A model generated the notes under the pieces. That model ran no database searches. It saw only the letters and a list, made by a program, of their open reading frames with translations, and was not told the DNA's origin. Shown piece after piece: positions 51,056 through 57,680 of a stretch of 64,000 nt of DNA (position 1 is its first letter; each line of letters starts with the position of its first letter). The position numbers and the translations under genes were made by a program. Origin of the DNA: Trebonia kvetii (GTDB taxonomy: Bacteria > Actinomycetota > Actinomycetes > Streptosporangiales > Streptosporangiaceae); the NCBI RefSeq assembly GCF_007827045.1, contig NZ_RPFW01000004.1, positions 558,001-622,000 of the forward strand, given 5' to 3'.

Positions 51056-51116
51056 TCCAGGCTCCTCCCGTGAAGCATCCCTTGCCTCTTCGACGTGGCC
51101 TGGCTTCCGTTGCGTT

Positions 51117-51133
51117 CCCGGGAAATTCCCGGG
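51117..51133. promoter_or_regulatory. 17-base palindrome between divergent genes
   Basis: CCCGGGAA-A-TTCCCGGG, about where the -35 region of the methyltransferase promoter should be. Likely operator. Confidence 0.55.
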
Positions 51134-51150
51134 GGATATTCCGGGCTCGC

Positions 51151-51156
51151 TACGAT
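51151..51156 (+). promoter_or_regulatory. -10 box TACGAT of the PF04672-type methyltransferase gene, leaderless
   Basis: TACGAT, seven bases, then GTG 51164; no ribosome site. Confidence 0.55.
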
Positions 51157-51163
51157 GTGTCTC

Positions 51164-51937
51164 GTGGCCGACTTTGACCCGACGACCCCGTCGATCGCAC
51201 GCGTCTACGACTTCCTGCTCGGCGGCAAGGACCACTTCGCAGTCGACCGCGAGGTGGCGGGCAGGCTGCTCGCCGTGGCGCCGATCTCCGCCGACGTCAT
51301 GCGGGAGAACCGCCAGTTCCTCGCCCGCGCCGTCCAGTGGGCGGCCCGCCAGGGGATCACGCAGTTCGTCGATCTCGGCTGCGGCATGCCGACAGCGCCG
51401 AACACGCACGACAGCGTGCGGCAGGCCTCACAAGACGCACGCGTCGTGCTCATCGACAACAACGCGGTGGTGCTCGCGCACCTGCGGGCGCTCGCCGCGC
51501 ACGGCGATCCCGGTGTGACCGCGATCGAGGGTGACATCCGCGAGGTTCCCGCCATCCTCGGCGCGGTCGGCGCCGCCATCGACCTGACACGGCCCGCCTG
51601 CCTGGTGATGGGGGCGCTGCTGCACTTCTTCCCGCCGGACGCGGCCCGCGACCTGGTGGCGGCCTACGTCGCCGCGCTCGCGCCAGGCAGCTACGTCGTG
51701 CTGTCCGTCGGCCGCGGCGACGGGGACACGGCCGACCGCGGCTTCGGCGCGTACTCTTCGGGCGGTACGGCGGCATACAACCACTCGGTCGCTGACTTCA
51801 CCGGCTTCTTCGGCCCGCTGGCCCTCGTCGAGCCGGGCATCGTCGACGCCCGGCTGTGGCACCCAGACGCCGCGCCTGACGGCCCGCTGCCGCCCCGCAC
51901 CGGCCAGTCTCTCGTCGGCGTCGCCCGGGTCGGCTAG
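51164..51937 (+). CDS. SAM-dependent methyltransferase, PF04672 (DUF574) type
   Basis: The N-terminus DFDPTTPSIARVYDFLLGGK is the signature of this actinobacterial family; FVDLGCGMPTAPNTHD is the SAM-binding motif I, and IDNNAVVLAHLRAL follows as motif II. Substrates are unknown. GTG 51164 is chosen from the leaderless-type TACGAT box. Length 257 residues. It is convergent with the small gene ending at 51947. Confidence 0.9.
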   Translation: MADFDPTTPSIARVYDFLLGGKDHFAVDREVAGRLLAVAPISADVMRENRQFLARAVQWAARQGITQFVDLGCGMPTAPNTHDSVRQASQDARVVLIDNNAVVLAHLRALAAHGDPGVTAIEGDIREVPAILGAVGAAIDLTRPACLVMGALLHFFPPDAARDLVAAYVAALAPGSYVVLSVGRGDGDTADRGFGAYSSGGTAAYNHSVADFTGFFGPLALVEPGIVDARLWHPDAAPDGPLPPRTGQSLVGVARVG

Positions 51938-51946
51938 CCGGCCGGA

Positions 51947-52198
51947 TCAGCGCTCGCCGCGCTCGCCGAGCTGGTCGCGGAACTCGGCGAGCGCCTCGTC
52001 CTGGTCGGCGCCAAGGCCGTCGAGCACGACCATCGCGGTCCCTGTCCAGTAGGCGCCCGCGTAGCTGCCGTCGCCCGGCACGAGCATGAAATCGTGCGCG
52101 ATCTTGATGTGATCGCACACCTCGTCCCACGAGACACCCGCCGGGACCATGGTGATCGACGGGGGCTCGCTGTCGTCGTAGGTCAGTCCGTCGAGCAT
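51947..52198 (-). CDS. Small conserved-looking acidic protein, 83 residues
   Basis: ATG 52198 is preceded by GAGGAAGTGG. The product, with GVSWDEVCDHIKIAHDFML and GAYWTGTAMVVLDGLG, reads as a compact alpha/beta domain; codon pattern and composition look genuine, unlike the longer frame from 52495, whose extra N-terminus is Pro/Arg/Ser noise. No family is recognised. Confidence 0.65.
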   Translation of the reverse strand: MLDGLTYDDSEPPSITMVPAGVSWDEVCDHIKIAHDFMLVPGDGSYAGAYWTGTAMVVLDGLGADQDEALAEFRDQLGERGER

Positions 52199-52334: not shown

Positions 52335-53591
52335 TCAGCGCTCGGCGTGCGCCGGGGCGACGGCGACACCCTTGAAGAACGTGTAGCAGAACACGCCGTC
52401 GTCCTCGGCGGTACGGTACAGGTCCCTGATCCCCTCGTCGAAGCGCGCGGGCTCGATGAGGCCGCCGGCCACCGCGGGCTCCCGGACACCCTCAATCATC
52501 GCGGTGAAGGTCTTGCGGATGAAACCGTCGGCGAGCGCCGGATTGCCGCCGTCGGCGTAGACGACGCGCGGCGACACGGCGACATCGCGGTAACCGGCCG
52601 CGGCGAGCAGCGGGTACAGCCGCCGCCCGATCATCGCGTCGCCGCCCGCGTGTCGCTGCAGCGTGACCTGACAGCCGATCGCGTCGCGGGCCGCCTCGCT
52701 GTCCGGATGGAAGTAGGCCGAGCCATGGTCGCCCTCGATGACCGTGATCGTGCCGCCGGGCCTGAGCATGGCGCGCAGCCTGACGAGCGCCTCCGCCGGC
52801 CGGTCCAGGTGCTCGAGCAGGAAGCAGACGAAGACGTGGTCGAACGTGCCCGCCCCGAGCTCGCCGTCGGAGCGCGGTAGCGAGAACACGTCGACCTCAC
52901 GGAAGGTGACGTTCGTGATGCCCGCCGCGCGCACTCGCGCGCGGGCCTCGTCGAGCGACGCCGCTGACTTATCGATTGAGGTCAGCTGGGCGCCCGGGCT
53001 GCGGCTGCCGAGCGTCACGGTCTGCGCGCCCACGCCGCAGCCCGCCTCGAGCACCCGGCTGCCATCTGGATAGCAGGTGCCGTCGTGCAGCAGGTCGACG
53101 AGGGTGCTCGCCTGGTCATGCAGCCGCAGGTTCTCCTGGGCCTGGTAGCCGTGCACGTACTGCTCGAACATCGTCATCGTCTCGATCACCTTCATGAGCG
53201 CGGCGGCAGTGCCGCCGTCGGTGCTGTCGTGGTTACCGTCGTAGGCGCGCAGCGCCGCCGCGAGCCGGTCCCGCAGTTCACCTCGGCGGCGCAGGTCCTC
53301 CTCGAGCTGGGCCAGGTGCGTCCGCAGCGTCGCGGCCGGATCCGGGTCCCGCTCGGCCAGCAGCGCGGCGATCTGCCCGAGCCCGAAGCCGGCGCGGCGC
53401 AGCGCCACTGCCCGGTAGAGCCGGGTGACCTGGGCCGGGCCGTACCTCCGCTGCCCGCCGGCGGTTCGGTCCGGTGCGACGACGCCCATCTCCTCCCAGT
53501 GCCGCAGCACGCGCACGGAAAGGCCGGTGGCGCGGGCCAGTTGCCCGACGCTCCAGGAGGCGGTGACCGAATTGGTCTCGTCGTTGCTCAT
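52335..53591 (-). CDS. MerR-type regulator fused to a SAM-dependent methyltransferase
   Basis: One continuous frame of 418 residues. Residues about 12-85 are a MerR winged helix (SVGQLARATGLSVRVLRHWE, GQRRYGPAQVTRLYR), followed by a coiled-coil (AQLEEDLRRRGELRDRL). From about 140 a class I methyltransferase follows: VLEAGCGVGAQTVTLG (motif I), TSIDKSAASLDEAR, FVCFLLEHLDRP, and LRPGGTITVIEGDHG. The promoter overlaps in MerR style with a 19-base spacer and palindrome, so self-control is likely. ATG 53591 is eight bases after the -10 box, nearly leaderless. The methyltransferase may act as the ligand sensor, or as an enzyme controlled with its own gene. Confidence 0.88.
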   Translation of the reverse strand: MSNDETNSVTASWSVGQLARATGLSVRVLRHWEEMGVVAPDRTAGGQRRYGPAQVTRLYRAVALRRAGFGLGQIAALLAERDPDPAATLRTHLAQLEEDLRRRGELRDRLAAALRAYDGNHDSTDGGTAAALMKVIETMTMFEQYVHGYQAQENLRLHDQASTLVDLLHDGTCYPDGSRVLEAGCGVGAQTVTLGSRSPGAQLTSIDKSAASLDEARARVRAAGITNVTFREVDVFSLPRSDGELGAGTFDHVFVCFLLEHLDRPAEALVRLRAMLRPGGTITVIEGDHGSAYFHPDSEAARDAIGCQVTLQRHAGGDAMIGRRLYPLLAAAGYRDVAVSPRVVYADGGNPALADGFIRKTFTAMIEGVREPAVAGGLIEPARFDEGIRDLYRTAEDDGVFCYTFFKGVAVAPAHAER

Positions 53592-53599
53592 CGGTTTGA

Positions 53600-53630
53600 A
53601 CTGTAGGGGGTGACACCGTGTCAGGTTCAA
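53600..53630 (-). promoter_or_regulatory. MerR-type promoter with 19-base spacer and central palindrome
   Basis: Minus strand: -35 TTGAAC (53630-53625), spacer of 19 bases, -10 TACAGT (53605-53600). The palindrome TGACAC-n-GTGTCA (53611-53623) lies in the spacer. This is the usual layout of MerR-regulated promoters. Confidence 0.75.
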
Positions 53631-55556: not shown

Positions 55557-57680
55557 ATGCGCCCGGTAACCGACCTGCAGCGGAAGGTGGCGCCGTTCGA
55601 GGTCGTCACCGAGATGACCCCGGCCGGCGACCAGCCGACCGCGATCGCGCAGATCGCCGAGCGGATCGGCGACGGCGAGAAGGACACGGTCCTGCTGGGC
55701 GCGACGGGCACCGGCAAGACGGCGACGGTGGCGTGGGTGGCCGAGCAGCTACAGCGCCCGGTGCTCGTCATGCTGCCGAACAAGACGCTCGCCGCCCAGT
55801 TCGCCAACGAGCTGCGCGAGATGCTGCCGCACAACGCGGTCGAGTACTTCGTCTCCTACTACGACTACTACCAGCCCGAGGCGTACATCCCGCAGACCGA
55901 CACCTACATCGAGAAGGACTCCTCGATCAACGACGAGGTCGAGCGGCTGCGCCACTCGGCCACCAACAGCCTGCTGACCAGGCGCGACACCATCGTCGTG
56001 GCCTCCGTCTCGTGCATCTACGGCCTCGGCACGCCGCAGGAGTACGTCGACCGGATGCTCAAGGTCAAGATCGGCGACACGATCGAGCGCGACCAGCTGC
56101 TGCGCAAGCTGGTTGGCATGCAGTACACCCGCAACGACATCGCGTTCACCCGCGGCACGTTCCGGGTCCGCGGCGACACCATCGAGATCATCCCGCAGTA
56201 CGAGGAGCTCGCGGTGCGGATCGAGATGTTCGGCGACGAGGTCGAGCGGCTGTCCACGCTGCACCCGCTGACCGGCGAGGTGGTCAGCGAGGACGAGGAG
56301 CTGTACGTCTTCCCCGCCAGCCACTACGTGGCGGGCGACGAGCGGATGGAACGGGCCGTCAACGGCATCGAGGCCGAGCTGGCCGAGCGGCTCGGCGAGC
56401 TCGAGCGGCAGGGCAAGCTGCTCGAGGCGCAGCGGCTGCGGATGCGCACCACCTACGACATCGAGATGATGCGCCAGGTCGGCAGCTGCTCCGGCATCGA
56501 GAACTACTCGCGGCACATCGACGGCCGCGGCCCTGGCACTCCGCCGAACACGCTGCTCGACTACTTCCCCGAGGACTTCGTCCTGGTCATCGACGAGTCG
56601 CACCAGACGGTGCCGCAGATCGGCGCGATGTACGAGGGCGACATGTCCCGCAAGCGGATGCTCATCGAGCACGGCTTCCGGCTGCCGAGCGCCGCCGATA
56701 ACCGCCCGCTCACCTGGGACGAGTTCTGCGAGCGGATCGGCCAGACGATCTACCTGTCGGCCACGCCGGGACCGTACGAGATGACACGCGTCGCCGGCGA
56801 GGTGGTCGAGCAGGTCATCAGGCCCACCGGCCTCATCGACCCGCAGGTCATCATCAAGCCGACCCGCGGCCAGATCGACGACCTGCTCGAGGAGATCAGG
56901 CAGCGCACCGAGCGCAACGAGCGCGTCCTTGTCACCACGCTGACCAAGAAGATGTCCGAGGACCTCACCGACTACCTGCTCGAGAACGGCGTGCGGGCCA
57001 GGTACCTGCACAGCGAGGTCGACACGTTGCGCCGCATCGAGCTGCTGCGCGAGCTGCGGCTTGGCGAGTACGACGTGCTCGTCGGCATCAACCTGCTCCG
57101 CGAGGGACTCGACCTGCCCGAGGTCTCCCTGGTGGCGATCCTCGACGCGGACAAGGAGGGCTTCCTTCGCTCGCCCACCAGCCTCATCCAGACCATCGGC
57201 CGCGCCGCCCGTAACATCAACGGCGAGGTCCACATGTACGCGGACAAGATCACCAACGCGATGCAGCACGCGATCGACGAGACCAACCGCCGCCGCGAGA
57301 AGCAGGTCGCCTACAACACGGCCAACGGCATCGACCCGCAGCCGCTGCGCAAGAAGATCGCCGACATCCTCGACGCGATCATCCGCGAGGACGCGGACAC
57401 CCAGGAGCTGATCGGCGGTGGCGGCCGCCAGCAGTCGCGGGGCAAGTCCCCGGTCCCCGGCCTGTCCTCGCGCGCCAGGGCGGCCGCGCAGGGCGCGGGC
57501 GAGCAGCCGTTCGCACCCACAGGCGAGGCACGCGGCGACCTGGTGGCCCTCATTGGCCAGCTCACCGACCAGATGCACGCCGCCGCGGCGGAGCTGCAGT
57601 TCGAGGCCGCCGCCCGGCTCCGCGACGAGATCAAGGACCTCAAGCGCGAACTGCGCGGCATGGAAGCCGCTGGCGTCTAA
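55557..57680 (+). CDS. uvrB: UvrABC system protein B
   Basis: DNA damage-verifying helicase of nucleotide excision repair. The 707 residues show Walker [16 protein letters not shown], the beta-hairpin region [32 protein letters not shown] (DExH-like), LYLSATPG-type motif, [17 protein letters not shown] and [10 protein letters not shown]. The C-terminal UVR domain ([19 protein letters not shown]) binds UvrC. ATG 55557 has GAGGAG upstream. Confidence 0.97.

Follow-up and report, generated by a model that had tools for sequence, protein, structure and literature searches.

A MerR-type DNA-binding head fused to a class I methyltransferase behind a conserved MerR-type promoter in Trebonia kvetii

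On the minus strand of the window (the whole stretch of 64,000 nucleotides of the Trebonia kvetii genome that was analysed), a single open reading frame runs from an ATG at 53591 to a stop at 52335 and encodes 418 residues. The original prediction described it as a MerR head and a complete SAM-binding domain joined in one frame. A Pfam search of its domain architecture bears this out, MerR_1 and Methyltransf models all scoring over their cut-offs. The span proposed at that time, 52335-53630, does contain the gene, but its upper end is base 1 of the -35 box and not the start of the protein. Since this box begins at 53630 and happens to read TTG, the span corresponds to the gene plus its promoter. 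The locus comprises the following features.

52335..53591, minus strand: MerR-methyltransferase fusion gene, an open frame of 418 amino acids plus stop, with full-length orthologues in four Streptomyces
53355..53552, minus strand: MerR winged HTH domain, residues 14-79 (Pfam MerR_1, 2.3e-17)
53235..53339, minus strand: predicted long (dimerisation-type) helix, residues 85-119 (AlphaFold2 model, pLDDT about 56-65)
52347..53174, minus strand: class I SAM methyltransferase domain, residues about 140-415 (Pfam; structural match to 3MGG)
52860..52874, minus strand: five-residue insertion, residues 240-244, common to all five fusions (alignment)
53625..53630, minus strand: -35 box TTGAAC (sequence; comparison of orthologues)
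53606..53624, minus strand: 19-bp spacer CTGACACGGTGTCACCCCC with the operator palindrome TGACAC-G-GTGTCA, conserved in four Streptomyces orthologues
53600..53605, minus strand: -10 box TACAGT (TAGCGT in Streptomyces), 8 nt before the ATG

The N-terminal winged HTH is of MerR type, MerR_1 reaching 63.3 bits over residues 14-79 against a cut-off of 21.6. Several Methyltransf models match residues 176-294 (best 3.6e-17), and the closest solved protein to this half is 3MGG from Methanosarcina mazei (residues 143-415, E 1.3e-89). In the AlphaFold2 monomer model (mean pLDDT 82.8), the enzyme domain is predicted with confidence and the head moderately well, the two being joined by the long helix and a weakly predicted hinge. 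The enzyme domain superimposes on 3MGG over 253 residues with Z 35.2 and rmsd 1.4 A. Together with the Pfam matches, this fold match identifies the Rossmann-like fold with SAM-binding motifs of a class I SAM-dependent methyltransferase. Every other structural match stays at Z about 20 or below; most of them are methyltransferases of small molecules. Foldseek ranks TmtA, a gliotoxin-type S-methyltransferase, second after 3MGG with GtmA close behind; we give no weight to a TmtA/GtmA-like function, as both (Z about 19) are tied with many others.

A frame error or mis-assembly of two genes is ruled out by four more genomes carrying the same fusion and operator. The fourth genome (G691, locus L101) was taken to be Streptomyces from 89% protein identity to the S. 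coelicoflavus copy and from shared neighbours. A tree built from 114 methyltransferase domains places all five fusions in one clade (support 100/93), which supports a single origin of this family and not several independent joins. All five fusions have the insertion at 240-244 and V258L; at least 95% of free-standing enzymes do not have them. The window copy matches the columns conserved in at least 95% of free enzymes everywhere but at V258, at this insertion and in the C-terminal tail. The SAM-binding motif E182-x-G-C-G-x-G (E182, G184-C185-G186, G188) is kept, as is D207, and a second stretch well outside the SAM motifs, EGDHGSxYFHP at 286-296, is conserved to the same extent. Degenerate methyltransferase residues across orthologues had been named in advance as the finding that would speak against the prediction; essentially all conserved residues are kept. 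A degenerate enzyme is thus ruled out, no conserved residue of the catalytic fold having been lost, and the catalytic domain is apparently intact in all five fusions.

For the head, dN/dS between pairs of Streptomyces copies is 0.16-0.22, and between the window copy and Streptomyces it is 0.20-0.25; for the enzyme the corresponding ranges are 0.12-0.21 and 0.34-0.40. These pairwise values place both halves under constraint (purifying selection). The linker leading from the long helix to the enzyme varies in length in the alignment, whereas residues ~132-145 beside the enzyme are nearly invariant between the window copy and Streptomyces.

The promoter was predicted as TTGAAC, a 19-base spacer with TGACAC-n-GTGTCA, and TACAGT; the letters match and the arrangement is conserved in the orthologues. 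In each of the four Streptomyces genes the order is TTGAAG or TTGCAC, CTGACACCGTGTGAGG(A/G)CC, TAGCGT, 7 nt and GTG. With 8 nt following the -10 box in the window and 7 nt before the GTG in the Streptomyces copies, the spacing is consistent with a near-leaderless mRNA. In an anchored alignment scored by ungapped identity, the window promoter is 74% identical to each Streptomyces copy across 31 nt, while the 100 nt upstream reach only 27-39%. Among the four Streptomyces copies the promoter is 90-100% identical and the 100 nt upstream 20-36%. A consensus pattern of the promoter (up to 3 mismatches) has one match in the window and none in 100 shuffles. This single match and the conservation in four Streptomyces orthologues indicate that the promoter is not due to chance.

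MerR-controlled promoters typically have a spacer of 19-20 bp, which is essential for control (PMC9909328). The palindrome lies inside just such an overlong spacer between the -35 and -10 boxes, as is characteristic of the MerR family (PMC9909328), and is kept there in five orthologues.

We then searched the five genomes carrying the fusion for the 20-nt operator TTGNANCTGACACNGTGTNA, allowing up to 2 mismatches. In each of them the exact operator occurs solely at the fusion gene itself. A further site with 2 mismatches occurs once in each of two Streptomyces genomes, and minor other targets of the fusion protein are therefore possible. Because the operator is kept together with the gene, is exact only there and lies next to a flank that is not kept, autoregulation is its likeliest role. 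The best inference from these comparisons is that the fusion protein serves its own gene as a dedicated regulator. The enzyme would then probably control its own amount through the predicted binding site in its own promoter, as the original prediction proposed in speaking of an enzyme that controls its own dose.

What signal, if any, the protein reads can be approached from the same data. It might sense SAM, SAH or the reaction product, so that methylation state or end product is read and the head feeds back on enzyme dose; the fully retained SAM-binding motif with D207 and the sole exact operator at the gene itself would suit such a sensor. On the other hand, a sensor of the SAM pool should control genes of the SAM cycle, and no exact operator exists elsewhere in the five genomes. 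The conservation of 286-296 to the level of the SAM motifs rather fits a retained specific substrate. We hold a SAM, SAH or product sensor to be unlikely. SAM, moreover, is always present in the cell, which makes the substrate a likelier inducer than SAM; the substrate is the probable inducer.

Alternatively, the protein may be plainly bifunctional, the head acting as a constitutive autorepressor or autoactivator that sets the dose and the enzyme domain sensing no ligand. The clear autoregulatory site agrees with this, as does the variable length of the linker that leads from the long helix to the enzyme. Against it speak the 19-bp spacer, a hallmark of promoters that need active distortion to fire (PMC9909328), and the near-invariance of residues ~132-145, not shared by the linker before them. 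This explanation, too, seems improbable to us.

Besides this fusion, two further MerR fusions are encoded elsewhere in the T. kvetii genome.

L003:1492-2601 (L003/L137), contig C21: second MerR-methyltransferase fusion, 370 amino acids (Methyltransf_11)
L181:547-1704, contig C40: MerR-PP2C fusion (Pfam MerR_1 5.3e-12, PP2C_2 4.9e-08)

The second fusion shares architecture and promoter plan with the 418-residue one but differs in its operator and in its methyltransferase, which is of another type and gives no full-domain alignment to the enzyme of the first. Of 246 other genomes sampled from the class, 12 encode it in full length (78-90% identity). Its promoter in T. kvetii reads TTGACC, a 19-bp palindromic spacer, CATAGT, 7 nt and GTG, again a near-leaderless arrangement. 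In each of the nine upstream regions compared, TTGACC is followed by a spacer of 19 nt bearing a palindrome like CACGTGACGTCA; next come CATAGT or something close to it and ~7 nt leading to the start. Of five genomes checked, four have no other site closer to its operator than two mismatches; the fifth has one other site at a single mismatch. The existence of this unrelated fusion with a separate operator of its own indicates, from sequence comparison, that the MerR-methyltransferase design arose at least twice.

The MerR-PP2C fusion likewise joins a MerR head to an enzyme-type domain, here protein phosphatase 2C, behind TTGACC-19 nt-CAGGGT-7 nt-GTG. The 418-residue fusion had been said to stand under a textbook MerR promoter. 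The layout is indeed of MerR type, but it is ordinary in this genome, where other MerR genes have TTGACC-19 nt-start; as further MerR genes, MerR-PP2C included, follow the same plan, the promoter alone does not set the fusion apart. The unusual feature is an enzyme in place of the passive ligand-binding domain, and even this has a second instance in T. kvetii.

The fusion is rare. Among the genomes sampled, the MerR head is fused to this enzyme in five, Trebonia kvetii and four Streptomyces; only 1 of 393 sampled whole genomes of the Streptomyces genus group carries the full fusion. None was found in 395 genomes of the class or in 60 near relatives (the window's genome aside), and the seven further genomes of the genus all lack a strong match. 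In one relative from the genus, uvrB, a frame of 83 amino acids and a glycosyltransferase-like gene occur together and the fusion gene is missing. Given its absence from genus relatives, this neighbourhood included, the gene looks accessory in its genus. The set compared lies in the window as follows.

51947-52198: frame of 83 amino acids
53737-55155 and 55557-57680: the pair formed by uvrB and the glycosyltransferase-like gene
51095-51937, plus strand: gene of the Methyltransf_19 family (PF04672), also near the fusion

In the relative (L212) the 83-residue frame sits between uvrB and the glycosyltransferase-like gene, and in the window the fusion gene separates it from both; this changed position shows that the spot was rearranged. 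Methyltransf_19 genes are present in 13 copies (E 1e-40 or better) in T. kvetii and in 7 to 20 copies per genome in the rest of the genus. An operon of the fusion with a gene downstream is unlikely, a gap of ~136 nt being followed by a small unrelated frame.

By itself, the methyltransferase half is widespread as a free-standing enzyme: 455 relatives were confirmed when GTDB genomes were scanned, and the best 80 of them were analysed. These 80 come from many bacterial phyla and from methanogenic archaea, and nearly all of them align across only ~140-410 of the fusion, with 55-69% identity. This distribution bears on another idea, namely that the enzyme methylates a macromolecule, for instance a protein near the promoter or DNA, and that DNA binding puts it in place. 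The physical tether to a DNA-binding head would be convenient for such a task. In most genomes, however, this enzyme stands alone, and of the PDB entries related to it in sequence, those beyond 3MGG mostly methylate small molecules (RebM, MitM and AtmM, for example). We regard a macromolecular target as very improbable.

Examination of the loci of free enzymes revealed further regulators. In their main actinobacterial clade, 32 of 36 loci (L090, L091, L096-L098, L100, L102, L103, L105-L127 and L129) have a divergent regulator of the MocR type (GntR plus aminotransferase), a pairing with the free methyltransferase of which our literature search found no report. In Caballeronia, an AraC-type gene stands directly upstream on the same strand in 6 of 6 cases. 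With the fused MerR, the divergent MocR and the adjacent AraC, the enzyme is placed beside three kinds of dedicated regulator. This fits what is expected of an inducible enzyme, called for solely in the presence of its substrate. Outside actinobacteria and Caballeronia there is no recurring neighbour (ten downstream and several upstream genes were tried, all different), and the gene neighbours at the loci examined gave no hint of the substrate.

The architecture, the conserved catalytic fold, the conserved cognate promoter and the restriction of the operator to the gene itself are well supported by these comparisons. Beyond them we infer catalytic activity, a substrate that serves as inducer, activation through distortion of DNA, and a purpose in detoxification or resistance. 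To the resulting model, an inducible self-dosing methyltransferase contained in one gene and following a TipA-like logic, with the substrate as inducer, we give an even chance. A dimeric MerR head would sit on its own promoter with the 19-bp spacer and keep the gene nearly off. Binding of a small-molecule substrate, with SAM, by the C-terminal methyltransferase domain would change the shape of the head, which would untwist the overlong spacer and switch on the nearly leaderless mRNA, yielding more fusion protein. Fresh enzyme would methylate the inducer, and with the signal gone the loop would turn off. Its purpose would be detoxification or resistance. Against this model weigh the rarity of the fusion, the silence of the gene neighbours on a substrate, the possible minor targets and, for the coupling of substrate binding to the head, the weakly predicted hinge of the monomer model.

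In multidrug-type MerR regulators, a passive ligand-binding domain does the sensing and a separate resistance gene is usually switched on. A bolder form of the model makes the catalytic pocket itself the sensor, substrate binding turning the gene on and turnover turning it off, a circuit in one polypeptide reached at least twice. It is a tentative proposal, and we would sooner expect it to fail than to hold. In either form of the model, a single protein under one promoter would unite sensor, switch and enzyme, and turnover would provide a built-in off-switch. The fusion also offers a handle on a highly conserved and widespread orphan methyltransferase, the 3MGG family. As the fused enzyme should report its own substrate via its own promoter, a screen for inducers could reveal what substrate the entire 3MGG family acts on.

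Among the matches listed from the open-licence full-text literature we found no description of a MerR regulator with a whole methyltransferase as its effector domain, nor of related HTH- or enzyme-regulator fusions; a looser search for enzymes doubling as regulators had no such fusion among the matches listed. The nearest known systems are TipA (TipAL, Streptomyces) and others of the TipA class (Mta, SkgA), built from a MerR head, a long helix and a C-terminal domain as is predicted for the fusion; their promoter is autoregulated, which for the fusion is probable. The head of TipA (2vz4) is also the closest solved structure to the head of the fusion (residues 12-114, E 9.5e-15; 1e-15 with the head alone). 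TipA is described as a minimal autoregulated MerR resistance system, and its C-terminal domain is the drug-binding TipAS, not an enzyme (PMC7762955). The fusion protein gives no Pfam match to this antibiotic-binding domain; unlike TipA it ends in a full class I methyltransferase. On the enzyme side, 3MGG and its free relatives belong to the same family as the fusion across the whole domain. They differ in having no MerR head, no insertion at 240-244 and no operator, and in actinobacteria they mostly lie divergent to MocR. The parts are known, and it is their combination that is rare.
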